Positions 19,162 to 47,828 of a stretch of 48,094 bases of DNA are shown here, piece after piece. Positions within the stretch are counted from its first letter, which is position 1, and the number at the start of each line of letters is the position of its first letter. The notes below the pieces were generated by a model. The model was not told the origin of the DNA. It saw only the letters and a program-made list of their open reading frames with translations, and did no database searches. The DNA comes from a virus: positions 1 through 48,094 of the IMG/VR virus record IMGVR_UViG_3300037246_000566, one strand, 5' to 3'. Position numbers and translations under genes: made by a program.

Positions 19162-20673
19162 ATGGATATCGTATGCCAGCACTGCCAATCCGGGGACATT
19201 CAGCGCCGCGGTTTTAGGGGAGACAAGCAGCGGTGTTTATGCAACAATTGCTCTAAATGGTTTGTGATTGAGCTTGACCTACCTCCGATAGAGGATACGC
19301 TCCCGGAAGAATATGGAGAGTTGGTTAATCTGAAAGGGAACGACAGATTCATCATCACCTCAGCTCAAAATAACACGCCGGTCGATACCAATTTTTGGAA
19401 ATCACTGCTCGCCTGGGCGGACTATTTCAGCGCTCAGATTCTGGTCATTCCTATGCTATATAAGGTAAGACCTGAGACTGAAATCTGGTGGGCGCCTGAG
19501 GTGGTTCCGTTTCTTATCAATGAGGAGATCAAGTTAGCTAAAGGCGTGCGGGTCTTCGGAGATCTACCGATTAGCGCTACCGCCGTCAATCCGCTCGCCG
19601 GGCTTGAAAGTCTTAGTCAGGGTGACTCGGCAATTTTCGGGCACACGCAAATTCAAATGAGGACTGTGGCTACCCCGCAGAATCGGCTGCCAAAGATTCT
19701 ACAGACAACGGGTACAACCACGTTAAAGAACTATAAGCGAGGTAAGGCGGGCAAGAAAGGCAGCTTCCACCACAGTCTAGGCGCGGCTATCGTGGAGTTG
19801 AACGACGGTATATTCTTCATCAGGGGCATCACCGGCAACTCCAATAGTGAGTTTTACGATCTTGACTTGCATTGCACTCCTCGTGGGGTCAAGAAGATCA
19901 AGCAGATCGAAGGAATCGTAGTCGGCGATGAGCACGAGCAGTGGAATTGTCCCGAGGTTCGAGCGGCTACTTTTGATGATGAGGATTCCATTGTAAACAC
20001 GCTGAAGCCTAAGCTCATCATTCGACATGATGTGACGGACTCCTACTCCATTTCACATCATCACAAGAACAGCCCATCAATCCAGTACCAAAAGCATCTC
20101 ACCGGTATGAACAATCTAAGAGCTGAGCTGGACGCGACAGCTAGATTTCTTGAAGAAACTACGCCCAAGTTCGCGCGTAGTGTAATCGTCCCGTCAAACC
20201 ATCACGACCATATCAGTCGGTGGCTAGAGGAGATAGACTGGAAAGCTGAGCCGTGGAACGCGGAGATCTATCACGACATGTGGGCCGCGTGGTTGAAGGC
20301 TATCCGCGAGGATGAGTCGCATCATCCGTATACGGCATGGCTTAGGAAGAATTGTAAGGCTGACTTAATCCTTCTCACACAGGACTACCCGTTTATCATT
20401 AAGGACATTCACATTGGATTTCATGGAGATCGTGGGGCTAACGGAGCCCGCGGGTCGCTGACTGGTTGGGCGAAGATTGGCACAAAGGTCATCGTCGGCC
20501 ACACCCATAGTCCGGGAATAGAGAAAGGAGCATACATGGTCGGCACAAGCAGTCTGCTGAGCCTGCAGTACACTCATGGTCCGTCAAGTTGGATGAATAC
20601 TCATTGTTTGATTCTACCCGACGGCAAACGACAACTTATACACATCATCGACGGTGAATGGAGGAAATCATGA
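19162..20673 (+). CDS. Zinc-ribbon metallophosphoesterase-like protein (T5 A1-like?)
   Basis: 503 aa. The N-terminus is a four-Cys ribbon CQHCQSGDIQRRGFRG ... CNNC (C5, C8, C27, C30), like transposase-type zinc ribbons. The body shows scattered calcineurin-like signatures: VVGDEHEQW, PSNHHDHISRWL in place of GNHD, FHGDRGANG and VIVGHTHSPG. This combination recalls the T5 A1 DNA-transfer/host DNA degradation family, but I rely on motif memory only. It lies between a nuclease and a nucleotide enzyme, supporting a nucleic-acid role. Alternative: an uncharacterised phosphodiesterase. Confidence 0.5.
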   Translation: MDIVCQHCQSGDIQRRGFRGDKQRCLCNNCSKWFVIELDLPPIEDTLPEEYGELVNLKGNDRFIITSAQNNTPVDTNFWKSLLAWADYFSAQILVIPMLYKVRPETEIWWAPEVVPFLINEEIKLAKGVRVFGDLPISATAVNPLAGLESLSQGDSAIFGHTQIQMRTVATPQNRLPKILQTTGTTTLKNYKRGKAGKKGSFHHSLGAAIVELNDGIFFIRGITGNSNSEFYDLDLHCTPRGVKKIKQIEGIVVGDEHEQWNCPEVRAATFDDEDSIVNTLKPKLIIRHDVTDSYSISHHHKNSPSIQYQKHLTGMNNLRAELDATARFLEETTPKFARSVIVPSNHHDHISRWLEEIDWKAEPWNAEIYHDMWAAWLKAIREDESHHPYTAWLRKNCKADLILLTQDYPFIIKDIHIGFHGDRGANGARGSLTGWAKIGTKVIVGHTHSPGIEKGAYMVGTSSLLSLQYTHGPSSWMNTHCLILPDGKRQLIHIIDGEWRKS

Positions 20674-26607: not shown

Positions 26608-26724
26608 ATGCGTACATTCTTTGATCATTATAGGTGGGGCCTGAACTGGTATAGGATGTACCGGCTCTTTCGATGGCACCTGCTGGCGGTGGCGATTGTG
26701 GTGTTCATCATGGTGATCTTCTAA
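26608..26724 (+). CDS. Very small membrane protein
   Basis: 38 aa, basic aromatic start (MRTFFDHYRWGLNWYRMYRL) then one hydrophobic segment HLLAVAIVVFIMVIF to the end. Strong ribosome site AAGGAGGAAA. TAATG overlap with the large glycosyltransferase. An orientation with the basic part in the cytoplasm is likely; it might anchor a partner to the membrane. Confidence 0.55.
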   Translation: MRTFFDHYRWGLNWYRMYRLFRWHLLAVAIVVFIMVIF

Positions 26725-29700
26725 TGCCTCCCTTCGATAGAGACGGAAACTGGTTTGATCCCGTTGAGCGGGATCTTCAAGCCTTCAAGGGCACACTCGC
26801 TTCGGACGATGAGACTACTGATGTTGTTCAAGCTACACCGGAGCTGATTTCTGCGCTGCAGAATTTGGCGATTGCCGATAAGAAAGAGGATTCAGCCACT
26901 CCGATTGACTTCTTTACCACCATCTCCCGCATCAAGGGTAAGGTGGACATTATTGTACCGGTTTACGGAGGGCTCCATGTCCTTCGCGATTGTGTTGAGT
27001 CCATTCAAGCTAGGACTCATTGGGACTACAACTTCATCTTTGTCGATGATTGCAGCCCGGACCCGGAGATCCTTATCTATCTGTACGAGCTACAGACCGC
27101 CCATCCCGATACAGTCACCGTTCTCGCTAACAAGCAGAATCGAGGATTCGCGGCTACTGTGAACCGAGGGATTGCGCACGGGTCTGCGCCCTACCTCTGT
27201 ATCATGAACACGGACGTAATTGCTACAGAGGGGTGGCTAGTCAGACTGCTGGTGGCGCTGGAAAGTGACGAGCGAAACTGTATCGTGAATCCGGCTACTA
27301 ATAACACGGCTTTGATCAACGTAGACATGTATGACGGTCGAAGTTATCTTGACATGGATCTTGCCCTGTCCCGACAAAACTCCATTCGGTATCCGGAGAT
27401 CATGCCTACTGGTTTCTGTTTCGTGTATCGAAGGGCTTTGATTGACGAGATCGGACCGTTCGATGAGGCTTACGGGAGCTACGGCGAAGAAACGGACTTC
27501 TGGTTCCGCGCTATCAACCATGTGACCAAGGAGGGCGTCCTTCTGGGCTACAAGGCGGTGATGGCGGACAACTGCTACATGTTCCATGAGCGAGGAACTA
27601 GCTTCTCCCAACTCGGAGCGGCCGATCACAATCACCAGCGGAAAACGGGCTCCCTTAGGTTCCACAGCATGCACCCACAGTTTATGGAATGGAATAAGGG
27701 ATACAATGTGGAATCCGCTATCGGAAGTCTTCGCCGAAATATCCCGACTAAGGCATTTACCCGCGAGCCTAAGGGTAACGTAGCTTGGGCGGTTAAAAGT
27801 GCCGGGCCGTGTGGCGGGATGTATTACATTACGGATATCGCGAACGCCATGATCGAGCAGGGCTATAACGTGAAAATTTGTCTCGTCCTCGATGAGCAGC
27901 TTGACGAGAACGGCAAGCGCATCCAACGGAAGGAGCCCCTCGTCGGAAATTTGCGGACTCGCCCCATCTTCTTCAATAGCCGCGAAGAATTCGTCGCACA
28001 GTTCTCTGATCGAGCATTTCGCGGCCCGGGAATTCTGTTCTCGGCGGTCACTGAGTTGACGCCGGCTTGTGTTAAGATCAGTGAATCCTCTAAGCATCTC
28101 ACGGTAATCAATCACGTTCAAAGCTGGGACGTGGGTCTTGCAAAGGAGGTTGGTCGAGAAAATATCATCCCGCTTATCGAGAATTGTTACCGCGCTGTCC
28201 CGAATATTGTTTCATCTAAGTGGGTGGCCGAAGAGATTAAGAAGCTGGGAGGTAAGGTGATTGGGTGCTTCCCGCCCGGAGTCAGTCCGGAGCTATTTCA
28301 CACTAGAGATCGTGAGGCTCACGGCGACGAGCGAACTACCTTCGGCGTTATCATGCTAGGGGACAACCCGTTCAAGGGCTATGATCGAGGCGTTGAGTTC
28401 TGTAATGCGCTGATCAAAGAGGCTCGGGATAAGAAGCTCGACATTCGAGTTCTCGCTATCGGCGCCGAGGTGGTGCGGGGGGCTCGGGGCGTGATTGGCC
28501 TTGGAGGCGTGTCACAGGCTAAAATGGCTGACCTACTTGGTCGTGAAATTGATGTGCTCGTTGATCCCGCAACTCTACACTCCTACGGTCTACCCGGACT
28601 AGAGGCCCTCTTCAGCGGTGCAAACTTCCTCTGTTGGGACAATAGGGGTGTGGAGGACTATCGGGAACACTTTGAAAAGAGCGTGAAGGTACTCAGCAAT
28701 GATTCTAAACCCAAGGAATGGGTGGATGCCGCCTTCTCTCTTGTGGACCGTCTGTCAGCACGAGACTTCGATGGAACGCCTACGGTACATCTTCGAAGAG
28801 ATTCGGTGGAGCAGTTCATTTCCACAGTCTTCACTGAGGAAAAGGTGGCGGAAGGCAAGCGTATCGAGGTAATCTCCCCGCACATGCGGAAGCACGGAGG
28901 CCCGACAACTCTCATCACTTCGGCAAATCTATTGCGCGCCGCCGGCAACGACGTGTCCATGAGCATGTGTCATGATGACTGGAATCCTGAGGTGTTGGGC
29001 ATGTCACTAAGTCCAATACGGACTAAGGGCTGGCGAGAGGTCCCTAACGGAACTGATGTGGTTATCATCAATTCAGATAACCCGTATGCCGCTGAGATCA
29101 TGAAGCTCAATCCGGATCACAAGTACGTCATGTACAAGTTGAGTCACAACGCGCGGTTCAAGTCGGTTGAAAACGACAATCTCAACCTTCCTTGGGACCA
29201 CATTATGACGAGCACGGATTGGTTGCGGGACGCCTGTATTGAGCCGGTTAAGGATTGGACCCATAATGCGTGGGATCCTAGTAAGGTGACGACAATCGGC
29301 TGGTACCACTACGGGCATCCGATCTTCGACCTATCTCCTACCAAGCGGCAATACGGAAGTGCCAAGACGGGCTTCAAACTAGGTACGCTGATTCACGCAC
29401 ACGAGTTGAAGGGCTCGCAGAGCTGTTTGAGCATCATTGCGGCGCTTAAGAAGAAGTACGAGGCGAATTTTCATGCTGCGGGTGTTGGGGAACATCGGGC
29501 TAAGCTCCCCTGGTACATGCAATACTTTTTGAGTCTTGGACGTGAGGATCTGGCCCACTGCTTCCGCCAGTTTGACATTTGGCTCGGAGGGAGTCACACT
29601 GAGGGTCTCGGTCGAATGGCACTTGAGGCAATGAGCGCTGGTGTGGCGGTGGTCACTACGAACACTGGAGCCACGTTCCTCAAGGATAGAGAGAACTGTC

Positions 29701-29879
29701 TCCTCTATGAGCCCGGGAACTCGCAGCACGGCGGCGAATTGGTGGACGAACTTGCAAACGATAATGAACTGTTCTTGAAGCTCGTAACTAACGGCTACAA
29801 CACCGCAGTCGAAGCCGCGGATCCCTCTAAGCTTGCCTACAACTTGAATCATGTGATCGAGGAGGTTACCAATGACTGA
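26724..29879 (+). CDS. Large three-domain glycosyltransferase (GT2 plus two GT-B domains)
   Basis: 1051 aa from ATG 26724. Residues ~72-300 form a GT2 (GT-A) domain: VDIIVPVYGGLHVLRDCVES, FVDDCSPD, NKQNRGFAATVNRG, IMNTDV (D-x-D position), PTGFCFVYRRALIDEIGPFD. From ~350 a GT-B domain begins (AWAVKSAGPCGGMYYITDIA) with a degenerate end motif HSYGLPGLEAL; from ~712 a second GT-B-like part (EVISPHMRKHGGPTTL) ends in HTEGLGRMALEAMSAG with an intact E-x7-E at ~957. Such fusions build oligosaccharides by successive transfers. Acceptor unknown: host surface sugar, phage virion or DNA are all open. Confidence 0.82.
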   Translation: MPPFDRDGNWFDPVERDLQAFKGTLASDDETTDVVQATPELISALQNLAIADKKEDSATPIDFFTTISRIKGKVDIIVPVYGGLHVLRDCVESIQARTHWDYNFIFVDDCSPDPEILIYLYELQTAHPDTVTVLANKQNRGFAATVNRGIAHGSAPYLCIMNTDVIATEGWLVRLLVALESDERNCIVNPATNNTALINVDMYDGRSYLDMDLALSRQNSIRYPEIMPTGFCFVYRRALIDEIGPFDEAYGSYGEETDFWFRAINHVTKEGVLLGYKAVMADNCYMFHERGTSFSQLGAADHNHQRKTGSLRFHSMHPQFMEWNKGYNVESAIGSLRRNIPTKAFTREPKGNVAWAVKSAGPCGGMYYITDIANAMIEQGYNVKICLVLDEQLDENGKRIQRKEPLVGNLRTRPIFFNSREEFVAQFSDRAFRGPGILFSAVTELTPACVKISESSKHLTVINHVQSWDVGLAKEVGRENIIPLIENCYRAVPNIVSSKWVAEEIKKLGGKVIGCFPPGVSPELFHTRDREAHGDERTTFGVIMLGDNPFKGYDRGVEFCNALIKEARDKKLDIRVLAIGAEVVRGARGVIGLGGVSQAKMADLLGREIDVLVDPATLHSYGLPGLEALFSGANFLCWDNRGVEDYREHFEKSVKVLSNDSKPKEWVDAAFSLVDRLSARDFDGTPTVHLRRDSVEQFISTVFTEEKVAEGKRIEVISPHMRKHGGPTTLITSANLLRAAGNDVSMSMCHDDWNPEVLGMSLSPIRTKGWREVPNGTDVVIINSDNPYAAEIMKLNPDHKYVMYKLSHNARFKSVENDNLNLPWDHIMTSTDWLRDACIEPVKDWTHNAWDPSKVTTIGWYHYGHPIFDLSPTKRQYGSAKTGFKLGTLIHAHELKGSQSCLSIIAALKKKYEANFHAAGVGEHRAKLPWYMQYFLSLGREDLAHCFRQFDIWLGGSHTEGLGRMALEAMSAGVAVVTTNTGATFLKDRENCLLYEPGNSQHGGELVDELANDNELFLKLVTNGYNTAVEAADPSKLAYNLNHVIEEVTND

Positions 29880-35920: not shown

Positions 35921-36074
35921 ATGCGCTTGTGGGAGCTACACCAACTATGGGCCGATGTGCGTTTCCTGCGTCATGGCTAGAACGGGAGAGCCCGAAACGG
36001 AACTCAACACGGACGATTGCTTTGAAGATGAAGAGGAATCTACTTCTGAATCTTCGTGTTCTGAGCCCGAGTAA
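35910..36074 (+). CDS. Small zinc-knuckle protein at the strand switch
   Basis: 54 aa. KCACGSYTNYGPMCVSC gives two C-x-C/C-x2-C knuckles; the tail is strongly acidic (DCFEDEEESTSESS). AGGAGAAG ribosome site before ATG 35910. Its last 35 bases overlap the end of the convergent 1421-aa gene on the other strand. Family unknown. Confidence 0.58.
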   Translation: MLTKCACGSYTNYGPMCVSCVMARTGEPETELNTDDCFEDEEESTSESSCSEPE

Positions 36075-39000
36075 GTCTCCGCATACCAGCTTCGGTCCAC
36101 AAATCCCGAGCAGACTGCTGCTGATACCTAGTGATATCCTGTTCTAGGTGAGCCCGCGTCACCAGCATCTTCCGCCGAATCTCCGCATCGGAGAGTCCCC
36201 GGAATTGAGGCATACGTGACGTAGCGGTTATTTGAGTATCCACCCAATCCATAAACTTAGACTTCGCCGTAATCGGATCTCCAGCATGCTCATAAGCGAA
36301 GTTCTTCCAAGCGGCTTCAAGAGCCTGCTTTGCGCGACTCGGACGCCCGGTACGGGCGGCGTCTTGGAATCTCTTCTGAGGCATGACACGCGCATCACGG
36401 AAGGCTATCGACCGACGCTTAGCGTGTTTAGCCTCAACCCCCGGATTGACAGCATAGCTCTTGTTCACACCTGTAAAGGTGTTGAAGAATCCATCCATAG
36501 TCCAATCACCACTCTTTCTACCGGTATTGGGATCTGTGGTGATGCCAAGATCCTGCATGAATCGGCGCGTATTGATTTCTGTCGCGGCCGTTGCTGTAAA
36601 TGCGCCCGCACCCACAGCCGGAATTGCAACCTGCCTGAGAAGCGCAGCCTTAGTGGCCGGGGTGGAGATTAGATTACCCGCCGCGTCCAGGGTCTGCTTT
36701 ATGCCCTTAGCCGCACCCTTCGCAGCCTGCAGCTTCTTCCCACCCATGAACGTAAGTCCTGCTGCCGCTAGCCCGAATAGTGCGGGCGTTACCGAAGAGG
36801 GCAGCGTCATCTGACTGCCATTGTTTTCATGAATGTCGGCCATCGGAATAAGCTCACCGCCCGGGGCTTCAAGTTTCATACCCCACTTCTGGATTGCGGG
36901 AGGCATGAGGAATCCAAGTAGGCCCATAGCCATCTTATTGCCGTAGCTGCCCTGGCCCATAAGCCCTTCGGAATGAATCTCCTGTCCGAATGAACCCTCG
37001 CCAGACGCAACCTGAATTAGCGGAGTGATGATAGAGCCGACAGCTAGGGGGGAGACATTAGCCACTGCTTGGGCCACATCTTGACCGGAGAACTCAACGT
37101 CCCGCATCTTGAGTTCCTTCTGTCGCTGCTGGTTCTCAATGGTCATCAGAGGGTCAAGCATCTCCCATTCCGAGGGGTGCCCGGTAGCGAATGACAATGC
37201 AGACTGCGGTAGGAAGTCCCAGGCCCATGCTCTAGCTAGATCTGCGCGCTCACCCTGTGAAACTGAGCGTGTGGTGGGGGCCTGTTTTCCAAGGGCGTAA
37301 CCTCCAAGCGTGCCGGCCAAGCCCATAGCCAATGCGCCCTTGGCCCCACCAATAGCCGCACCCACCGAGCCTAGAATCAAACCGCCTCCGAAAGATCCGA
37401 GAACCGGAGCTGCCGAACTCTCATTAAGGTACGTAGTAGAATACTTAGACGCCCAGCCGGGAGTACCCGCCTCCAGCCCCGCGGTCTCGATCTCGGGACC
37501 ACTGGGGCCCGCGCCTCCAGCGAACAGCATGGACTGTGCAATCTTCGGAGCGTGCAACCACGCTATCATCGACACCGGATAATCCTGTAGGTTGTTCTTG
37601 ATAATCCGAGCGGCCTCACTCTGGAATGTTATCCACGGCAGAACGTGCCGTCGAGCCTGCGCCTGCATGTGCCCAACCGTGAGGTATTGAGGCATCCGTC
37701 GCCCAACTTCCTTCATACCCGCGTCAATAGACCAACCCTTACGGAGATAGTGTGAAAGAAGCATCATCTTGGGAACCATATCTTCACCGAGATATGCGGA
37801 AGACATCATCTGTAGCGTGGGCTTGACACCGGGGGCCTCGCCGATACCGGCAATTGCGCGAGCCACTGCGGCGCCAGTAGCCTGTCCGAAGCCGTCTGCC
37901 TCGTAGCTCTCCATCTTCGCAAGCACCTTTTTGGCGCGAGCAAATCCTTCTATACTTTCAAATGATTGAGCTTCCATCATCTGAGCAACACGAGAGTCTG
38001 AGAACACCTCGGCGAGATCAATCCTAGTACCAAAGTTATCCGTGATGTAGCGATCATCGCCGAAGACCTTGATTAGATTATCCTTTTCAAGAAGATCACT
38101 AAGTTCAAGGTCAGTGCGTTTATTAGCCTTACGAGCCAGCTTGGTAAACGCATGCGCGTATACCTTACCGTCGTTCAACATCGTTCTGCCGAATGGGTTA
38201 ACTCCGGACATTCCGATAAACGCCATATTGCCAACAAGGTTGTTAGCGTGAGTGGCCGGATTCAAAGATGTCTTCGAAGTCTTATGAACCGCAGTCAGCA
38301 GCTCAAACAGGCGCCCGAACGTAGTGGAACCCATCTGAGCTGATTCGTCCGAATTTCCGAAAAAGGATTCAACGATTTCTCGATCAATGGCGGGAAGTCT
38401 GCTGTCGCCCTTGATCGAAACGCCGTCCTTCTCCAACTGCTTCCTAACCATTCTGGACACACGGTCTGCGAGGTTCGGTGAAACTTCGTTAAGCTCTTCA
38501 ATGTTGAGCCACCGTTTCTTAGCGAAAGGGGAGAGCTTGTCATAATCAGAGGCGTTCATGACCCAGTTCCCAACCTTAGCGGCATCATCACCACCCTTCA
38601 TGTGGGCAGTGATGATGTTCCGGAAGGCACGGTGTACCTGAAACATCGTGTCATCGTGAATGAATCCGCCGACTGCGAGAGAATGCGGGTCGGTAATCAG
38701 CTTATCAAGATCCCGCTCAACCGCGTCCCAGGTAGTGTACTCGGAACGAGTCTTCATAGTAGGCCCGCCGAGAGCCTTAGCCGGATCAAAGATCTTAGTC
38801 TCAACAACCTCCCGAATTGGCTCCCCCTTAGCATCAACACGAGCCAGCCCGGGACGACCCTCTACCTTCTTCGCGCGAAGACTTATGCTATGAACAGAGG
38901 TGTCTCCGAAGCCAGCAGTACCCTTCTTCACCGCAGGTAGATGGAACTCTGCCAAATCGCTACCGGGTCCGAACTTATCCGCGGTCATGAATCCTTCGTC

Positions 39001-40305
39001 AACCTGGGCCTCGAACAAACCGATCCACTCACGCTTCAGCGAGTCAGCCCACTGGGCTCCTTCGGGGCCAAGCTCCCTAATCAGGTCGTCCGCATCAGCC
39101 CGGCCAGCGAAGAACTTGTACATGATCTTAGCGGACTTGTCGGTAACAGCGGGGACGGTAGCAAGTAGCTTACCAATAGCCTGCTCGTCCATCCATCGGT
39201 CCATCCCCTCAATCTGTTTCTTGGAGAGATCGGTTTTGTTGTTCCAATACTTATTGCCAAAAGTATCAAACGCCTTCAGCTCCATGCGATGGAACATGCT
39301 CAACTCGTCGTTCTTACCAAGCTCCGCGAGCTTCGCATAACGAGACGTGTGCATGTCTCCCACGAGCATGCGCCGGAGATCCTTCTCAGAGATCATCTTT
39401 GCAACTGCCTCATCCGTCATGCCCGTAAGTTTAGCTGCATTCTCCTTAGTGATGAATGAACCGAACTCGTCTGTGTTGTTAGCAAGGGTTCGGACTAGAC
39501 GCGCGTGGTCATCAAACCGCACGCGCGGGCCCACCATCTTCATAGCCTCCCAGGTGCTGTCCATTGAGCCTTCGGCCAGCGTTCGCCTAACAGCCTCCCC
39601 TCCCTTGGTCCCAAAGAGGCCACGGGCGGTGACCGCACCAACGTCCCCAGCTTCGAAAGCGAGACGGGTTGCGTGCTGGGCTAGGCGGGCGCCCTTCATC
39701 CACGCGGCAGTAATAGGTACAAGATAAGTTGCAAGAGTGAATGTCGTGGAGTACGGATGTTCAATGAGTTGATTGCGAAAGTTGTCGAAGGCCCACTCGG
39801 TGCCCTCTTGATCCCACTTCAAACCAAGCAGCCCCATCTCATCGCCAAATATGGTGTTGGCAATATTGTGCGCGGCGTACCACGGATCACCATTATCCTC
39901 AGAGGTATCTTCATTCGCGTCATACTGAATGAGCTGGGGATCACTGGACTCCGCGGCAGCAATGTCATCAGGACTAGAATCTAGACCAAGAGAGATCTTA
40001 TCGGCGTCTAGCTGAACCCGCTGTGAGTTCTCTTCGATACTTTGATAGAGCTTAGTGCGTCTCAGCGCAAGGTCAACCGTTTCATCCACATCGGGACTAA
40101 TGGGGTCTTGCGGGTCTGTCTGTTGTGGTAGGAGAACGCCGCGTTGCGGGCTCTCACCGGGGGCAAGGAGGCCGCCTATTTTCGGGGGTGCGGGCGGCAT
40201 CAAACCGACCTCTGTAAACGCAGAAAACCCAGGACCGAACCGAGGCTTTTCCTCCTCAGCGGGCTGGGCTTTTTCGTTCAAATCGTCCGGTAGGATTACG
40301 GGCAT
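36040..40305 (-). CDS. Very large internal virion / DNA-ejection-like protein
   Basis: 1421 aa. Proline-rich start, long helical soluble region, then a glycine-rich hydrophobic stretch (~residues 965-1000, SFGGGLILGSVGAAIGGAKG) and an Ala/Gly stretch near 1170-1190 that could insert in membranes. A segment HVLPWITFQSEAARIIKNNL recurs, from memory, in large phage structural proteins. Position after two other ejection-type genes fits a T7 gp16-like role in DNA delivery, but no lytic transglycosylase motif is visible. AGGAGA lies before the start; the gene directly abuts the 715-aa gene. Identification is by size, order and composition. Confidence 0.6.
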   Translation of the reverse strand: MPVILPDDLNEKAQPAEEEKPRFGPGFSAFTEVGLMPPAPPKIGGLLAPGESPQRGVLLPQQTDPQDPISPDVDETVDLALRRTKLYQSIEENSQRVQLDADKISLGLDSSPDDIAAAESSDPQLIQYDANEDTSEDNGDPWYAAHNIANTIFGDEMGLLGLKWDQEGTEWAFDNFRNQLIEHPYSTTFTLATYLVPITAAWMKGARLAQHATRLAFEAGDVGAVTARGLFGTKGGEAVRRTLAEGSMDSTWEAMKMVGPRVRFDDHARLVRTLANNTDEFGSFITKENAAKLTGMTDEAVAKMISEKDLRRMLVGDMHTSRYAKLAELGKNDELSMFHRMELKAFDTFGNKYWNNKTDLSKKQIEGMDRWMDEQAIGKLLATVPAVTDKSAKIMYKFFAGRADADDLIRELGPEGAQWADSLKREWIGLFEAQVDEGFMTADKFGPGSDLAEFHLPAVKKGTAGFGDTSVHSISLRAKKVEGRPGLARVDAKGEPIREVVETKIFDPAKALGGPTMKTRSEYTTWDAVERDLDKLITDPHSLAVGGFIHDDTMFQVHRAFRNIITAHMKGGDDAAKVGNWVMNASDYDKLSPFAKKRWLNIEELNEVSPNLADRVSRMVRKQLEKDGVSIKGDSRLPAIDREIVESFFGNSDESAQMGSTTFGRLFELLTAVHKTSKTSLNPATHANNLVGNMAFIGMSGVNPFGRTMLNDGKVYAHAFTKLARKANKRTDLELSDLLEKDNLIKVFGDDRYITDNFGTRIDLAEVFSDSRVAQMMEAQSFESIEGFARAKKVLAKMESYEADGFGQATGAAVARAIAGIGEAPGVKPTLQMMSSAYLGEDMVPKMMLLSHYLRKGWSIDAGMKEVGRRMPQYLTVGHMQAQARRHVLPWITFQSEAARIIKNNLQDYPVSMIAWLHAPKIAQSMLFAGGAGPSGPEIETAGLEAGTPGWASKYSTTYLNESSAAPVLGSFGGGLILGSVGAAIGGAKGALAMGLAGTLGGYALGKQAPTTRSVSQGERADLARAWAWDFLPQSALSFATGHPSEWEMLDPLMTIENQQRQKELKMRDVEFSGQDVAQAVANVSPLAVGSIITPLIQVASGEGSFGQEIHSEGLMGQGSYGNKMAMGLLGFLMPPAIQKWGMKLEAPGGELIPMADIHENNGSQMTLPSSVTPALFGLAAAGLTFMGGKKLQAAKGAAKGIKQTLDAAGNLISTPATKAALLRQVAIPAVGAGAFTATAATEINTRRFMQDLGITTDPNTGRKSGDWTMDGFFNTFTGVNKSYAVNPGVEAKHAKRRSIAFRDARVMPQKRFQDAARTGRPSRAKQALEAAWKNFAYEHAGDPITAKSKFMDWVDTQITATSRMPQFRGLSDAEIRRKMLVTRAHLEQDITRYQQQSARDLWTEAGMRRLTRAQNTKIQK

Positions 40306-42453
40306 TTACTCTCCTGCGGCAGACTTAGCAGATCCGATAGTGCCCTTCTGGAATCCGATTTTGAAGACATCATTGGATCCGGTAGCTTCAGGAATAGTCA
40401 ATAGTTTACGAGTACGTTCCTTACGTTCGGCCTTATTAGAATCGATAATGTCCCCTACTTCATCCACACCGCGTTCAATGTACTCTCCAACTTCTTTAAG
40501 GCCCTTACTGACACCCATACCGACAAAGGCCGCTGCCTTATCGATCGGACCCGAGTAGAGAGCGCGCACTTCCCTCAAACGTGCCGCCGCCTTCGCCCTA
40601 ATGGCGCCCTCAACCCGTAAATCGCTGATGATCTTCTTGAGCTGGGCGTCGGCTGCTTTTAGCTGATCTAGGTTCATCTTCTCAATATCTACCTCAAAGA
40701 TATTCTGACCCTTTGTATCTAGAGGCTCCTTTGGAATAGCTCGATTACGTTCCACGCGAGGCAAATCCTGTCTGGGGACTTCGGCTCGCTTCGCAGCCTG
40801 TTTGTCGTGGAACTTCTTTAGTTCCTCTGGGGAGGGTACTCGGGCAAGGGGTCCAGTCGGAGTCTCCTCCGGTGAAACTACCGCGGCCGGGCCTCTAGTA
40901 TATTCACGGTACTTAGCCTTAGCGCTCTCCGACCAATAAGTTACGTCAACGCCAGGATTCGTCAAACTCGTATAGAGCGCGTATGGATTCGTGTGGTATG
41001 CGGCCTCTTCCCCGGCCGACCACTCACCGTCCAAAGTCTTCTGGGAGCGCATAACTGCAAGTTCGCTCTTGATCTTCGATTGAAGTTCCGGCTGCCAGAT
41101 TGAGACCTCTTCCATACGCCGGGCCTGCGCGTTCGCATGCGCAGACTGGCCGCCGGGGCCAGCCATAGCGATCTGAGCGAGGAGGCCCATCAATGCGCGA
41201 GAATTCGGAGGCTCGGTTTTCAAGTGTTCAGCGCCTTGGGCTCCGACAATCCCAGCGTAGGCGTCACCGAAAGCCCAGGGATCCGCAGCATGTTCACGAG
41301 ACAGCGCGTTAATGTCGCTAGACAAATTCTCCTTGAGATATTCCTTGTACCTCGGCTCGCCTCTGATCTCCGATGAAAGACCGCGACCACCGGGATTACC
41401 AATCACATCATCGGAGTAACGCCACTGTCCGTCGGAACGCTCACGAGCCTTGCGATCAAGAAACTCTTGACGATGCAACTCATAACCCGCAGCATTATAT
41501 GCCGCAGTTCGGCGGGGGTCACCAATGCCAAGTTCCAAGGCTCGATCGGACTTAACGTCGGTGGTACCAACCTCGGCCTCGCGTGTGCGCCTTGCGGTAG
41601 AAAGCTCCTCACGTTTCTCGGTGCGAACTAGGGAGGCATCTTCCTGCTCCTGCTTGTATCGAACCTGATCTTCCGGGGACTTCTCGCCCGTAACTCCGAA
41701 GCCCGCTTGATTCATTGTCTCCTGGGCAAGATTTCGCATCGCTGACTCTGCAAACGGATTCCCACTAAGCTTGGCTATCTCATCCATAACTTGAAGGTTG
41801 ATCTTAGAGTAACCATCCCAAAATGTCTGATTGGCTCGATTAAGAATCGCCTGTCCTTCTACCGTCTGTACGTCTACTGCCTGACCGGTAAGCGGGTCCA
41901 TGATTGCAAGCTTCTGCTCGATGGACGTAGCTCCCAAGTTCCCACCCTGCGTTATAGGGTTCGGAGGTATATCCGGTTGACCGGGCACCACCTCCGACTT
42001 TGCGTTCTCTCCAGCACCCGAGGTAATAACCTGAGGCTGAGTGGGTGTGGCGGACATCTCCCGCGCAGTATTCGCGGCTTGAATATCTTGTGGATCCAGC
42101 CCGCTAAGAATTGTAGTCACCGGCAAAACCTTGATTGCCGATGCAATCGCGTGCTCCTCTACAAGCCCCTGTAACTGCTCAAACAGAGGGTTGAGTTTAG
42201 CCTCCTTAACAGATTCCATCTCTTTCTTATAGAATCGGTTTCTAATATTCTCTGCGTTCTCTTCGCCAATTCTAGCGTATGTAGCGTGCTTAGCCGCCGC
42301 GCCGGCTGCTGTAGTTTGTGACGCCGCGAAGATAGAACCTAGTCCACCTTGCACCATCCTCTGACCGGCCATTTTAGCTAGCGTGGACTTGTCTACGGGA
42401 CCCCTTGCCTGCTGAGGTGCGGGGTTAAAATTAGAGGTACGCTTTTCTGCCAT
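40306..42453 (-). CDS. Large internal virion-like protein
   Basis: 715 aa, helical, rich in Ala, Glu and Gln, with disordered Pro-rich stretches (TPTQPQVITSGAGENAKSEV region). N-terminus has QGGLGSIFAASQTTAAGAAA. No enzymatic motif found. Size and place between the 390-aa and 1421-aa genes suggest the middle protein of an ejection set (as gp14-gp15-gp16 in T7), an inference from gene order only. AGAGGAATT before the ATG. Confidence 0.58.
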   Translation of the reverse strand: MAEKRTSNFNPAPQQARGPVDKSTLAKMAGQRMVQGGLGSIFAASQTTAAGAAAKHATYARIGEENAENIRNRFYKKEMESVKEAKLNPLFEQLQGLVEEHAIASAIKVLPVTTILSGLDPQDIQAANTAREMSATPTQPQVITSGAGENAKSEVVPGQPDIPPNPITQGGNLGATSIEQKLAIMDPLTGQAVDVQTVEGQAILNRANQTFWDGYSKINLQVMDEIAKLSGNPFAESAMRNLAQETMNQAGFGVTGEKSPEDQVRYKQEQEDASLVRTEKREELSTARRTREAEVGTTDVKSDRALELGIGDPRRTAAYNAAGYELHRQEFLDRKARERSDGQWRYSDDVIGNPGGRGLSSEIRGEPRYKEYLKENLSSDINALSREHAADPWAFGDAYAGIVGAQGAEHLKTEPPNSRALMGLLAQIAMAGPGGQSAHANAQARRMEEVSIWQPELQSKIKSELAVMRSQKTLDGEWSAGEEAAYHTNPYALYTSLTNPGVDVTYWSESAKAKYREYTRGPAAVVSPEETPTGPLARVPSPEELKKFHDKQAAKRAEVPRQDLPRVERNRAIPKEPLDTKGQNIFEVDIEKMNLDQLKAADAQLKKIISDLRVEGAIRAKAAARLREVRALYSGPIDKAAAFVGMGVSKGLKEVGEYIERGVDEVGDIIDSNKAERKERTRKLLTIPEATGSNDVFKIGFQKGTIGSAKSAAGE

Positions 42454-42469: not shown

Positions 42470-43642
42470 TTAGGGGGTAGAAAGAGCGATGGCTCCGCCA
42501 CCGGGAAGACTTTGGGCACCGCCACCGGGGCCTGTCATCATTACGTTGCCGGAGGGACTGCCGCTAATCCCAGCGCTACTACCCCCTCCAGCGGCTCCCA
42601 TGATCAGGGCGCCGCTCAGTGATTCTACGAGTCCAGAGATTACTTGACCCTTCTGCGCTTGCGCCGACATCAAGGCGTCAGTGGCCTGCGCATTCGCAGC
42701 TTGAGATTGTCCCGCTGCGGCGGTGTTCGCACCAAGTAGAGCGGGGGTAATGCTCGACCAGAAAGTTCGTAAGTTGGTGAGCGCTGAGGTATATGTGTCT
42801 CGAATCCCCGCCTGATTGTCCACCCAGCTATTTGCGAAACTCAAGTTGCCCTGGATAATCTGGTTGCGGGTTGTTTCTAGATTCACACGGGCCTTCCACA
42901 GACCCTCAGTCAATTGGGTATTAATCCGCTCTTGGGCGTACATCTTTTGAGCTGCAGCAAAACCTGCTCGGCGAGCGCCCCCTCCGCGAGCAACCCCTCG
43001 CGCAATCTCCTCCATTGCCGCGCGCTGCTGTCGGGCCGCACCCTGCATGACACCGCCAATTGCAGAATTGTTAAGGGCGTCCCACAATTCACCTTCACGG
43101 TTACCAAGTTCAATCGCCTGCCCAACTAGCGAGCTGACTGCTGAGAATTGTGCTTGATTTGTAATGTTGGTTGCTGTTTCAAACGGGTCATCGACGGTGC
43201 CCGATACGGAGAACTCTCCGGTCATCTTCCCCTTCTTCGCCTTGTATTTTCCGCCCGCAGCAACTCCACTAATCTCACGGTCTCCGTACAGACCGCCGGG
43301 TTGGGATCCAAAGGCCGAACGCATGCCCTCTAAGCCGCGAGGGCCTCCAACATCAACAGTAAACTCACCCTGTCCCGCTGAGCTGCCGTAGGTACCGGGG
43401 GCTCCCATCTGAGAAAGAACTAGACCGCGTGCAGTCTCCGAGGATCGAAGCTGGTCTCGCGCGATTTCGGCCTCGGCGCCCACCTTCTCAGAAATTACAT
43501 TTTGCTGGAGTTGGCTTGCGCGTGAAATCTTTCCCGCAGCTTTCCGGCCCTTTTTGGCCGCTGAAGCTTGCTTCTCCGCAGAATAAATCCCGGCGCCAGC
43601 CCCGAGGACGGCGGCCCCGCCTATTGCTGCTGCTACGCCCAT
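42470..43642 (-). CDS. Internal virion / ejection-like protein with N-terminal membrane segment
   Basis: 390 aa. Residues 3-22 (VAAAIGGAAVLGAGAGIYSA) are an Ala/Gly membrane-type helix, then a charged helix KQASAAKKGRKAAGK, helical middle, and a Gly/Ser-rich end. This layout is common in small phage ejection or internal core proteins such as those of the T7 gp14 type. It overlaps the sulfotransferase-like gene by 10 bases. Confidence 0.6.
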   Translation of the reverse strand: MGVAAAIGGAAVLGAGAGIYSAEKQASAAKKGRKAAGKISRASQLQQNVISEKVGAEAEIARDQLRSSETARGLVLSQMGAPGTYGSSAGQGEFTVDVGGPRGLEGMRSAFGSQPGGLYGDREISGVAAGGKYKAKKGKMTGEFSVSGTVDDPFETATNITNQAQFSAVSSLVGQAIELGNREGELWDALNNSAIGGVMQGAARQQRAAMEEIARGVARGGGARRAGFAAAQKMYAQERINTQLTEGLWKARVNLETTRNQIIQGNLSFANSWVDNQAGIRDTYTSALTNLRTFWSSITPALLGANTAAAGQSQAANAQATDALMSAQAQKGQVISGLVESLSGALIMGAAGGGSSAGISGSPSGNVMMTGPGGGAQSLPGGGAIALSTP

Positions 43643-44166
43643 GTATCAACTCCTATCAAATTAGCTAATTTCTCACGCACGCTAGTAGGACTCAACCAAG
43701 TTTCATTGATATCAATGGTCAAATCCGGCCGACCTCGCCAGCAACCCTCCAACCGGTGTTGGATCGAGCAAACAAACCTGAACGTGTCGTCATCAGGGAG
43801 TTGCTGCCTCAGTGAATGGATCGTGTCGTAGTACGGTCGTGCGGTAGTAATAACTTTCACCTCATGGCCTAACCGGTTTGCGGCTGTTCGAAAGGTTCTA
43901 ATGAATGGAAGAACGAACGGCGACTTCACACCGAATATATCACCCTTTCGTTTCTGTATGTACTCTGCGAAGAACTCTCTAGGGTTCTCATTGTTAATGA
44001 TCCCTTGCAAGCAAGTATCTGTGAACTCGATGTCTTCCCAATCGAACTGACCTCTACTGTTGTGTGGGAACCTCATCTGTGTGCCCATCGGCACGCCCAG
44101 CTCGTGCAGGTGTTCAGCTAGTACGCTAGTGCCGGATCTCATCAAGCCCGTCACTACGTAAATCAT
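43633..44166 (-). CDS. Sulfotransferase-like protein
   Basis: 177 aa from ATG at 44166 (in a TGATG overlap with the previous stop). P-loop-like phosphosulfate-binding start YVVTGLMRSGTSVLAEHL, then FGVKSPFVLPF and the VITTARPYYDTIHSL strand, which match the second (R-x-P) region of PAPS-dependent sulfotransferases. It may sulfate a sugar or other small target. A start at 44202 would run into the upstream gene and is unlikely. Found between virion genes, as part of a three-gene cassette. Confidence 0.65.
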   Translation of the reverse strand: MIYVVTGLMRSGTSVLAEHLHELGVPMGTQMRFPHNSRGQFDWEDIEFTDTCLQGIINNENPREFFAEYIQKRKGDIFGVKSPFVLPFIRTFRTAANRLGHEVKVITTARPYYDTIHSLRQQLPDDDTFRFVCSIQHRLEGCWRGRPDLTIDINETWLSPTSVREKLANLIGVDTWA

Positions 44167-44735
44167 CAGCGATTCCGTTGACTCATAAATTGCATACCCC
44201 ACGCAGGCAGTCGTCCAAGAATGACCAACAGCATTTCCAATCCGATTGGAATTCCAACCACATGTGCTGTGACTCCGGTGAAGGCTGCCGCGTTTGGAAA
44301 CAGTGGCGTACCCTTGACATCGCTAACCAACGCTGTAATTGCGTCCACTCGTTCGAGATGCTCTGCATACTTCAAACGAAGCAGCGCATCCACTTCCGCC
44401 CAGGCTGGATCTATACCTTCCTTGAAGAAAGAATTGCCCCAGCCGGGGATTATATTTCCGTCTACCAAAAACTCGTGGATCTCTTCATCGTCCCAGCCGT
44501 AAATCAACTCTCTAGCGTCCTGCGCGGGGCCGTGTACAGGGCCACCAAGCGTTTGCAGAGCCGAGGCCACACATTGCGGGAATGCAGCCTGCACGGAAGC
44601 GTTGAGACAAAGTGCTATACTACTCACATTCTCGTTCTCCAACGCTGCTTTTCTATGTGCGGCCAGAACAGCCCCAATCAGCTCATCAGAGTCATCGTTC
44701 GCGGGCAACCCAATCCACTCAGTCCAGTTATTCAT
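44166..44735 (-). CDS. Citrate-synthase-like protein, C-terminal half only
   Basis: 189 aa. It follows the second half of citrate synthase: LNASVQAAFPQCVASAL, GGPVHGPAQDARELI (the H-G-G-A-N region; active-site His kept), PGWGNSFFKEGIDPAWAEVD (normally G-F-G-H-R-x-Y-K-x-x-D-P-R), and FPNAAAFTGVTAHVVGIPIG (normally P-N-V-D-F-Y-S-G). The catalytic Asp is Ala, and the earlier catalytic His is absent. The N-terminal half of the enzyme is missing, though the start (ATG 44735, overlapping the previous gene by 8) is normal. Citryl-CoA lyase-like relatives are possible. Real enzyme activity is doubtful; a binding or structural role is an option. Confidence 0.7.
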   Translation of the reverse strand: MNNWTEWIGLPANDDSDELIGAVLAAHRKAALENENVSSIALCLNASVQAAFPQCVASALQTLGGPVHGPAQDARELIYGWDDEEIHEFLVDGNIIPGWGNSFFKEGIDPAWAEVDALLRLKYAEHLERVDAITALVSDVKGTPLFPNAAAFTGVTAHVVGIPIGLEMLLVILGRLPAWGMQFMSQRNR

Positions 44736-45198
44736 CAGTGTTCAACTTGGCTACGTAGTGCAGCATGAAGGGCTCAAAGCCATTTGTCTCCGCTACATCA
44801 CTCCACTTACCAACTGTCGGTGTGGAGAACACGATACCGCCATAACCCAAATCCACTGCGCGCGTCTTAGCCGCCTCAAGTAGAATCTCTTCGACGCCCT
44901 CCCCTCTGCCGTCTTTTGAAACAAAGAGTGCCGTAATAGAGGCAACTGTACCTAGCTTAAAAGAAACTACTGACTGTACTTCTGTGATCGCTATCACAGC
45001 CTTATCCGCTACAAATAGAACAAACCCAAAGGGGTTGTCCACAGCCTCCTTAAACAATTGATCAAAGAATTCCACCGTCTCAGGGCTGTTCTTGACTAGA
45101 AGATCAACATTCTCTGGGTCGTCAAGAGACTCCGACATCAACTTTCTAAATAGTCCTAGATCACGAGATCGCGCCTCTCTCACTCTGATCTTTTTCAT
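44728..45198 (-). CDS. GNAT-family acetyltransferase
   Basis: 156 aa. N-terminal IRVREARSRDLGLFRKLM, central strand ASITALFVSKDGRGEGVEEI (the acetyl-CoA binding R-x-x-G-x-G/A loop) and C-terminal NGFEPFMLHYV fit the GNAT fold. Substrate unknown. GGGGAG lies before the ATG and the repeated 13-base motif lies 33 bases upstream. First gene of the cassette that continues with the citrate-synthase-like and sulfotransferase-like genes. Confidence 0.72.
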   Translation of the reverse strand: MKKIRVREARSRDLGLFRKLMSESLDDPENVDLLVKNSPETVEFFDQLFKEAVDNPFGFVLFVADKAVIAITEVQSVVSFKLGTVASITALFVSKDGRGEGVEEILLEAAKTRAVDLGYGGIVFSTPTVGKWSDVAETNGFEPFMLHYVAKLNTDE

Positions 45199-45278: not shown

Positions 45279-47828
45279 TTAATTACGACCGCCGCCGCTA
45301 ACAGGGGCCCCCGTCACAGCGAACTGACCGGGCCTGAGGTGGTACTCAAGGCGACAACCCATAATTGATACATCTACGTCCTTCTGGGCGTTCGTAATAG
45401 TCAATCTAATATATTCAGCCGGGGTCAGATCCTGCGTGGGTAGCCGGAGTAGGCTTACGCCCGCCGGGAACGAGAATGTGAGATCTTGTGAATCACGAGC
45501 AGCAATATTCTCAGCGGCGCTGTCAGAGGTCTCAACAGTCACAGTCCATTCGTGTGCAAGACCGCTCGCCTCCTTAACTCTAAGTTCAATCCAGCGCGGC
45601 GAAATACGCCCAGTGGCTGCCTCGTACTGAGCGTCATAGGGGCCGCCGCCACCTCCTCCAAGACGCATATACGCGGTCTTTAGTTCCATCGTAATTGCTC
45701 GCGCCTGTCCGGACTCATTCACCCAGTTAAGCGCATCCGAAGCCATGAATTCAAAGACCATACCTGCGTCTGTGCCGCAATGTAACTGAAACGAGCCGTC
45801 AGTATCTTCAATCTCCCACATGCTAATAATGTTGAAGTCTGCGGGGGAGGGGACGATCTGTGAGAACCACCCTTTGCGAATTTCATCAATGGCGTACTGG
45901 TAGCAATAGATGTCCGTGTACACGCCGTTGGAATCCTTGATGAACCAGTAGATGGCGTTATGCAATTTAGAGTGTGCCGTGTGAGTATCCTCGATTGAGG
46001 ATTTATCGAAAGCGTCTACTCTATCCCGGATCACTTCGGATACCTTGAGGGCCTCGCGCAGATCGTAGAGTCTAAGACCATCACGATCAACCACCCATCC
46101 CGTCTCTCTGGCGGTACCGACGGCGCGTGGGCCAATGCAGCCAAAGCCCTCAATCACCTTATCCACAGTGTAATCGGGATTGTCACCGATTACGCGCCAA
46201 TAAGCAGTCTCTGTAGCAATCACTAGTCCGAGATAGGTACTGAATATTCCCGTAATTCTATCATCGAACTCAATCGCATTTGAGAAAGGAAATGCTTCCG
46301 GCAAATCAAACCTACTGTAATAGAGTAGGTTTGGATTCAAAGGATCTCCGGCAAGGAATGCGGTTCGCTTCCACACGAGAGTGATACCCGCAGACGGGGG
46401 AGGGCTATTGTCGAGAATAGTTTCCCCGAGCGTGGGAGGTGTGGTAACGCCCAGCGAGGCATCGGGGACGGTATCTGCGAATGTGGTGGTCACATTGTCG
46501 TTTATAGTGCCTAAAAATAGCCACTCCGAACCGGAAGCCAGTGTGCGATACAAATCACGCCTCACAACAGCATCACTACCTATCGAGATATCACTCCAAG
46601 TAATCTGTCCGAAGTCTGTTGAGCCGGAGGTGTTGTCTGCAACTACCGATTGTGGCCCGGCGTTAGATTCGTTACCCGCCTCATCAATAAAGGTAGTCTT
46701 CAAACTCCAAGTCGAAGTGCTAGATTGCTGAAAGACAGAGCCTCCAGAAGAAGCAAAAGCTGCCAGTGCGCCGCCTTGATCGAGCTTGACCAAGTTATCC
46801 CAATATACTACAACTTCATCGCCGGAGTTGTTTGTAATGATCTCAAACTTTAGTGAAGCTAGGTTGTCATCGTCCGGCGTGCCCGAACTCGTCCCAAAAT
46901 CTCCAGACGGAATAGTCGAAAAGTCAAAGATCAGTGTGTTCCAACCCTCGAACAAACGCCCAATCTGGAAGTCGTATCTGAAGACATCGTTAGCGGTATC
47001 AACGCCGGATCCAATGTATATTGAAATCGCTCGGCCGCTGGTCGCTAGCTTGCGGTAATGCTCTCGCGGAATGAATACATTCATACGACAGCGATCAGCA
47101 ATAACAGTGTTAATTGCAAATGGTGTACGGTTGTCTGATTGACAAGAGGCTGCGGTGCCTCCGGTACCCTTAGTCATTTTTGTGGAAGTGCCGTTAAACG
47201 CGATAGATGTGCTATCCTCAACGGCGGCGTTTGTAACACTACCCGCACCATCAGCCGCACTAGCAGAAAAGATGGTGGCGTCATTGAACGTCTCGATCTG
47301 ACCGCCTTGTAGATTGTTAGTAAGGGATCCTGTCTCCTGCCCTCCCGGAGCGGTTAAGCCCCACTGCGTGATACGAGTACCATCATACTTGGACATCTGG
47401 CCTCGATCACCAACATTGAACGGGTTCTGACTCGTGATGAACATGAACCGATCCAACTGCCCGGAGGTGCGAGAGATCTGCGTTGAGGGTTCCCCGGTCA
47501 GCAGCTCAGTGGTTGTGCCGTCTGCCTCCACCTTACGGATTGTGGTACCAGCGGCAATAAGCTCTTGACGATCAATGGCTCCGGACAAATCCTGGGCTTT
47601 GTAGAAATCACCCCAGGCAATGGATTTAGCAGAGCCACTCTCCGTATACTGAGAGTTCAGAACGCGACGAGTGCCGTGAAGCTTACCTAGAGATCCATAC
47701 TCTCTAAAGAAGTCCGCGTTCTTACACTCTCGTAGCTGGGTGGGTTTAAGAACCTCCGGGTTCTGTTTAGTATAGAGCCCCTCCCAGTTTATAATATCGA
47801 TTGAGGGTAGTGTATTACGTTCGGCCAT
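45279..47828 (-). CDS. Large virion/tail protein with beta-sandwich regions
   Basis: 849 aa. Residues ~1-170 (LYTKQNPEVLKPTQLRECKN, repeated G-T-R/T segments) resemble phage tail-stabilisation or head-tail proteins with propeller-like repeats. Residues ~185-360 contain a jelly-roll-like segment (RAISIYIGSGVDTAND, EIITNNSGDEVVVYWDNLVK) that looks like a carbohydrate-binding module insert. A fibronectin-like section (TFIDEAGNESNAGPQSVV, then VVRRDLYRTL) follows, then propeller-like strands to the end. Function inferred as a tail or adsorption component. Start ATG 47828, GTGGGATAAAG upstream. Confidence 0.6.
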   Translation of the reverse strand: MAERNTLPSIDIINWEGLYTKQNPEVLKPTQLRECKNADFFREYGSLGKLHGTRRVLNSQYTESGSAKSIAWGDFYKAQDLSGAIDRQELIAAGTTIRKVEADGTTTELLTGEPSTQISRTSGQLDRFMFITSQNPFNVGDRGQMSKYDGTRITQWGLTAPGGQETGSLTNNLQGGQIETFNDATIFSASAADGAGSVTNAAVEDSTSIAFNGTSTKMTKGTGGTAASCQSDNRTPFAINTVIADRCRMNVFIPREHYRKLATSGRAISIYIGSGVDTANDVFRYDFQIGRLFEGWNTLIFDFSTIPSGDFGTSSGTPDDDNLASLKFEIITNNSGDEVVVYWDNLVKLDQGGALAAFASSGGSVFQQSSTSTWSLKTTFIDEAGNESNAGPQSVVADNTSGSTDFGQITWSDISIGSDAVVRRDLYRTLASGSEWLFLGTINDNVTTTFADTVPDASLGVTTPPTLGETILDNSPPPSAGITLVWKRTAFLAGDPLNPNLLYYSRFDLPEAFPFSNAIEFDDRITGIFSTYLGLVIATETAYWRVIGDNPDYTVDKVIEGFGCIGPRAVGTARETGWVVDRDGLRLYDLREALKVSEVIRDRVDAFDKSSIEDTHTAHSKLHNAIYWFIKDSNGVYTDIYCYQYAIDEIRKGWFSQIVPSPADFNIISMWEIEDTDGSFQLHCGTDAGMVFEFMASDALNWVNESGQARAITMELKTAYMRLGGGGGGPYDAQYEAATGRISPRWIELRVKEASGLAHEWTVTVETSDSAAENIAARDSQDLTFSFPAGVSLLRLPTQDLTPAEYIRLTITNAQKDVDVSIMGCRLEYHLRPGQFAVTGAPVSGGGRN

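Follow-up and report, generated by a model that had tools for sequence, protein, structure and literature searches.

Why a phage should carry, next to its virion genes, an ORF resembling half of a citrate synthase (CS), and what the encoded protein could do, is the question raised by the DNA studied here. This is a viral stretch of 48,094 nt (IMG/VR record IMGVR_UViG_3300037246_000566, positions 1 to 48,094), and it is referred to in full as the window. A preliminary description had claimed that the ORF at 44166..44735 (reverse strand, 189 aa) follows the C-terminal half of citrate synthase and that the N-terminal half is missing. It had offered a citryl-CoA lyase-like enzyme, a mimic of the host enzyme and a structural reuse of the fold as possibilities.

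The Pfam profile PF00285 (citrate synthase) matched the ORF with E=6.1e-11 (42.4 bits vs. a cut-off of 27). Residues 36–187 aligned to profile positions 183–348 of 357, and the large N-terminal domain of CS is absent, in agreement with the preliminary description. CS and 2-methylcitrate synthase sequences from PDB matched the window protein at 7.5e-6, a profile built from 20 sequences of the family detected CS among PDB sequences at E=2.7e-14 (hmmsearch), and a profile-profile comparison of the family with four bacterial CS gave E=1e-11. All 20 family representatives matched PF00285 at E<=0.01. The AlphaFold2 model obtained with the family alignment was confident (pLDDT 93.4, pTM 0.89) and showed a CS fold rather than a different one. 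In Foldseek comparisons with PDB, the best match of the model was the citryl-CoA lyase 6hxp (TMq 0.76, E=1.4e-7); 2-methylcitrate synthases came next, reaching TMq values of 0.82. The profile search and the structure prediction proposed in the preliminary description thus both pointed to citrate synthase, and the CS-like protein is a homologue of its C-terminal part. All scores against full-length NCBIfam models were far below cut-off (31 bits vs. 550), as was the score against the citryl-CoA lyase model PRK06224 (14.2 bits vs. 212), in which the match begins at position 68 of 263. The 20 representatives were 175–195 aa long, which shows that the short form is the norm of the family and not a local truncation. 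An artefact, a decayed fragment and a split gene were ruled out by the large family of the same length, a dN/dS of about 0.08 and the confident fold.

The gene was found in a virion operon, as had been described. All genes of the region are on the reverse strand, in the order structural gene, GNAT-like gene, CS-like gene, P-loop gene, followed by genes in the positions of gp14, gp15 and gp16. The structural gene (45279..47828, 849 aa) matched phrog_511 ‘internal virion protein’ with E=1.5e-12. The GNAT-like acetyltransferase gene (44728..45198), located in the interval between gp12 and gp14, overlaps the CS-like gene directly downstream of it by 8 nt and was assigned from a match to phrog_1249 (E=2e-6), with Pfam GNAT scores below cut-off; having GNAT-type matches, it was rejected as a candidate for the missing half of CS. 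The P-loop gene (43633..44166, 177 aa from its ATG) encodes a P-loop protein of sulfotransferase type, assigned from its loop motif and from the Sulfotransfer_3 matches of its relatives, and its start codon overlaps the stop codon of the CS-like gene (TGATG). The next gene downstream (42470..43642), which showed no profile match in Pfam or PHROG, was assigned as a gp14-position, ejection-type virion protein from its position, size and start motif, MGVAAAIGGAAVLGAGAG..., which is common to the gene following the pair in relatives. The genes at 40306..42453 (715 aa) and 36040..40305 (a giant protein of 1421 aa) were assigned to the gp15 and gp16 positions by position and size, in comparison with the gp14/15/16 operon of T7, where gp15 has 747 aa and gp16 has 1318 aa (PMC8954989). 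Elsewhere in the window, and in addition to the podovirus-like ejection operon, the region 19162–20673 strongly matched phrog_1745 ‘DNA transfer protein’ (E 2e-142). A 1068-aa protein encoded at 26673–29879 showed several glycosyltransferase matches (phrog_2170 and others) within one ORF. In T7, the place equivalent to the interval with the GNAT-like, CS-like and P-loop genes before gp14 is presumably occupied by gp13.

Residue equivalences were read from pairwise, profile and profile-profile alignments with CS sequences, using pig CS as reference, in which we take His274, His320 and Asp375 to be catalytic and His238 to bind oxaloacetate, with roles for the other residues assumed likewise. The equivalents in the window protein were N36 for Asn242, S38 for Ser244, H68 for His274, N101 for His320, K105 for Arg324, A111 for Arg329, N148 for Asn373, A150 for Asp375 and R175 for Arg401. 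The Asp of the P-N-V-D motif is thus Ala (P-N-A-A in the window protein), as the preliminary description had stated. Its claim that one catalytic His is missing also held: the GxGH histidine is replaced by Asn101, whereas that of GPLHG is kept as His68. Moreover, two active-site histidines are gone, since the His238 column, too, contained Ala or Ser, while the first His of the HxxH motif (H27) was kept.

Across 106 aligned rows, the Asp375 column, which lay outside the search motif, contained Ala in 95, Ser in 8, Gly in 2 and Asp in 1, the lone Asp coming from the automatic alignment. Asn101 was present in 106/106 rows, in a column that belonged to the DNA search pattern by which most members were found; when loci were collected without this bias, by a scan based on the sequence around H68, the residue at 101 was Asn or, in two lineages, Ser, and never His. 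H27, S38 and H68 (the last in 104/104) were invariant in the 104 ungapped rows, R175 was invariant in all 105 ungapped rows and N148 in the 106 aligned rows, where N36 had one exception. Ranked by conservation among the 189 positions, H27 was 2, H68 3, N148 7, R175 9, N36 10 and S38 17, all of them outside the GxGN...DPxW search motif, compared to ranks 81 and 140 for the columns of D375 and R329; the motif-conditioned columns from G98 to W112 were excluded as independent evidence of conservation. The CoA-loop motif xPGxGxxFxK was also retained. Replacement of the enolising Asp and of one catalytic His is therefore a property of the whole family, and conservation is highest at the substrate-cleft positions, although this could partly reflect constraints of the fold. 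With Asp375 and His320 replaced and the large domain absent, citrate synthesis, and with it the Claisen chemistry of citrate synthase, appears very unlikely from the sequence. At the equivalents of Asn242, His274, Asn373 and Arg401 there was little or no variation, and a ligand site has therefore probably been kept.

Iterated searches of IMG/VR yielded relatives at 32–45% identity, and a DNA pattern scan found at least 119 stretches, essentially all of the listed ones scoring at E<1e-30 with the family profile. Two further IMG/VR scans were performed, one of them keyed on the H68 region rather than on the GxGN...DPxW motif, and every new locus found by the H68-region scan was a family member. 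In total, this protein of ~185 aa was detected on about 140 distinct IMG/VR contigs, all uncultured; the number is a lower bound, as the main searches relied on short motifs, on which some of the conservation is also conditioned. Clustering of the first 127 loci at 65% identity gave 12 clusters, one of which contained 110 loci. In an IQ-TREE analysis, all 24 phage representatives fell on one side of a branch separating them from four bacterial CS (support 100/100), with stems of 2.7 changes per column each on the phage and the bacterial CS side. Median dN/dS was 0.08 for the CS-like gene (1745 pairs) and 0.10 for the partner gene. The CS-like proteins thus form a single conserved phage clade, on which purifying selection acts. 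The N-terminal halves, when aligned, were too variable throughout to supply a motif for a locus search.

No family member was found among 50,697 INPHARED phage records; tblastn matches there in ‘Acinetobacter phage MD-2021a’ were to ordinary prpC/gltA in a bacterial context (prpB-prpC-acnA), and hence to host sequence. No relative with the family motif was found in 84,980 GTDB genomes and no member in plasmids, where the matches were to ordinary prpC, and capture of a bacterial gene by the contig was rejected on these grounds. PHROG, PADLOC and the viral structure models of BFVD gave no match to the CS-like protein. Its identity with a known defence system was rejected given the PADLOC result, and the statement that no phage protein of this kind has been described agrees with what was found in these three collections and INPHARED. 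In the open-access literature, to which the search extended, no description of the family was found.

The recurrent sulfotransferase-like P-loop partner is the most informative feature of the locus and goes beyond the preliminary description. A P-loop gene was adjacent to the CS-like gene at 140 of the 143 loci with enough flanking sequence (123 downstream, 10 upstream, 7 fused; 3 without), some contigs being counted as more than one locus, and six further loci were cut by contig ends. For the downstream P-loop genes, the modal overlap with the CS-like gene was 11 nt. The order CS-like gene, P-loop gene, ‘MGxxAA’ gp14-position gene recurs in relatives, and the pair is mostly located just before the gp14/15/16-like ejection genes. 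In L006, L007, L008 and L136 the two are fused into a protein of 363–364 aa with the P-loop domain N-terminal and the CS-like domain C-terminal. On the tree, the arrangement switched at least six times, with adjacency kept. At one locus (L076), the P-loop ORF starts 11 nt before the CS-like stop and runs into the gp14-position gene in one frame of 440 aa, in which the last P-loop residues are lost; either a genuine fusion or an indel introduced during assembly could explain this. The unbiased scan also revealed two lineages without a recognizable P-loop partner anywhere on their contigs of 67 kb, 38.8 kb and 20 kb (L149/L153/L148 and L152), with the CS-like gene (L153:407–967; L152 5627–6151, reverse strand) in DNA-metabolism modules with ThyX-, RusA- and nuclease-like neighbors, identities which were read from the sequence. 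Obligatory pairing was therefore rejected; the association is strong, with exceptions.

The partner proteins are divergent (160–235 aa) and share far less identity with one another than the CS-like proteins do. In place of the Walker A motif they have a G-x-P-R-S-[GR]-T loop, with the Arg invariant in 16/16 and the Walker A Lys absent, as in the 5′-phosphosulfate loop (PKSGT/PRSGT-like) of PAPS sulfotransferases; in the window partner the motif is GLMRSGTS. A putative 3′-phosphate motif (R.P.....S-like) was recognized in the window partner (ARPYYDTIHS, ARPxxxxxxS) and in the fusion, and is degenerate in the abundant lineage. Sulfotransfer_3 matched 10/16 partners at E<=0.1, the best with E 2.8e-6, the individual scores being below the curated cut-off, and a partner profile matched PDB sulfotransferases at E=1e-4. 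The model of the window partner was of moderate quality (pLDDT 77) and showed a generic P-loop fold; the Stf0 sulfotransferase was found among kinases in its structure matches, and P-loop kinases resembled it as much as sulfotransferases did. From motif and model, we describe the partner as sulfotransferase-like and do not call it a sulfotransferase. Distant relatives of the partner are present in the cultured Pseudomonas phage PaMx28 (L155:4483–5025) and Clavibacter phage 33 (L156), near DNA-metabolism rather than ejection genes; lying in other modules, they were of no help as clues to function.

It is very likely that the CS-like protein has been repurposed and is not a citrate synthase. A working auxiliary metabolic gene, i.e., a short citrate synthase, methylcitrate synthase or citryl-CoA lyase, would be in line with the profile matches to the CS, PrpC and citryl-CoA lyase families and with reports of viral ‘gltA’ as such a gene (PMC8066274, PMC7472104, PMC12376549), but the replacement of Asp375 and His320 throughout, the loss of Arg329, the missing large domain and scores far below the full-length cut-offs make it exceedingly improbable. 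Of the citryl-CoA lyase proposal, the fold has stood, with 6hxp as the nearest PDB structure, and the chemistry has not, the Asp and His being replaced. A regulatory mimic that binds host citrate synthase as a hetero-oligomer, or ties up the substrates of that enzyme, thereby changing the host TCA cycle, would account for the genuine homology, the fold and the retained cleft residues; yet most of the large domain is absent, the gene sits in a late operon beside ejection genes and the recurrent partner is left unexplained, and we consider this reading very improbable. Structural reuse of the fold, in which the ejection operon would employ it without ligand or catalysis as a virion component, assembly factor or chaperone, agrees with the loss of the strict catalytic pair Asp375/His320 and with the usual site directly before the gp14/15/16-like genes, the interval presumably belonging to gp13 in T7. 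This proposal was weakened, and now appears unlikely, as the best conserved columns are those of the substrate cleft and, in two lineages, the gene lies not in the virion operon but in DNA-metabolism modules; the recurrent partner, moreover, is enzyme-like. It is rather likely instead that the CS-like protein has a functional ligand site, as predicted from the retained cleft.

Action together with the P-loop partner is also likely, if a little less so. The adjacency could merely reflect that both genes occupy one slot for accessory genes before gp14, with no functional link, and the presence of a third such gene, the GNAT-like one, in this interval of the window, the low identity among partners and the two lineages without one fit that view; 140/143 loci keep the pair despite reversals of order, however, and one lineage has fused it, so we regard mere co-residence as improbable. 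In the explanation we favor, to which we give about an even chance, the CS fold has been put to a new use, as a ligand-binding subunit or an enzyme, and the protein would usually act alongside the P-loop partner late in infection; the partner would not be obligatory, given the two lineages in DNA-metabolism modules without it. The CS-like part would bind a small anionic or CoA-type ligand via the retained His/Asn/Arg site and the CoA-loop motif, the P-loop part would provide a group-transfer or nucleotide site, and the two proteins would associate with each other or act one after the other on a shared substrate. We propose that the pair may be a late two-part modifying enzyme using a cofactor with a 3′-phosphoadenosine end, because both parent folds bind such cofactors (CoA, PAPS); a cofactor of the CoA/PAPS type is plausible, though we lean slightly against it. 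The substrate would be a molecule of the cell surface or a protein of the virion or ejection apparatus; this is speculative, and a virion or ejection protein in particular seems unlikely. The fullest version, a two-component enzyme of CS-fold and sulfotransferase-like subunits with a CoA- or PAPS-type cofactor, which modifies a virion, ejection-apparatus or cell-surface target in abundant uncultured phages and is mislabeled in viromes as a TCA-cycle auxiliary gene, is tentative and would have perhaps a modest chance of being right in all its parts.

If true, only the C-terminal part of a central-metabolism fold has been kept, has lost its chemistry and has become fixed in diverse phages, and podovirus-like phages carry a testable two-protein module at the border of their ejection-protein operon. 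The CS-like family is probably a repurposed enzyme, not the metabolic gene as which virome surveys would label it. This calls for caution in ecological virology, where viral ‘gltA’ counted as TCA-cycle reprogramming may mislead if the gene belongs to this family.

Compared to known systems, the module resembles the T7 gp13-gp14-gp15-gp16 ejection operon in its position just before gp14/15/16-like genes, and we know of no CS-like or sulfotransferase-like gene in the gp13–gp16 interval of T7. With GltA/PrpC (PF00285), the phage protein shares the C-terminal part, the fold, His274/Asn242/Asn373/Arg401 and the PGxGxxxxK CoA-loop motif; it differs by its length (175–195 vs. 370–430 aa), the absence of the N-terminal large domain, the replacement of Asp375/His320 and the loss of Arg329/His238. 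The citryl-CoA lyase of Hydrogenobacter (Ccl, PDB 6hxp; PRK06224) also has a shortened CS fold and is the nearest PDB structure by E-value, whereas the phage protein is far below the PRK06224 cut-off and has the catalytic Asp and His replaced. The partner shares the G-x-P-R-S-[GR]-T loop and weak but repeated profile matches with PAPS-dependent sulfotransferases (Sulfotransfer_3, Stf0); it is smaller, below the curated cut-offs and diverged in the second motif in the abundant lineage, and such an activity is only putative. Finally, viral gltA has been named an auxiliary metabolic gene in viromes (PMC8066274, PMC7472104, PMC12376549), and a scaffold carrying it, which had one of its about 40 ORFs in common with known phages, accounted for 25.4% of the reads in one sample from Lake Baikal (PMC8066274). 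Automatic annotation of the CS-like family would likewise read ‘citrate synthase’, and some of the viral ‘gltA’ auxiliary genes may belong to the family described here.
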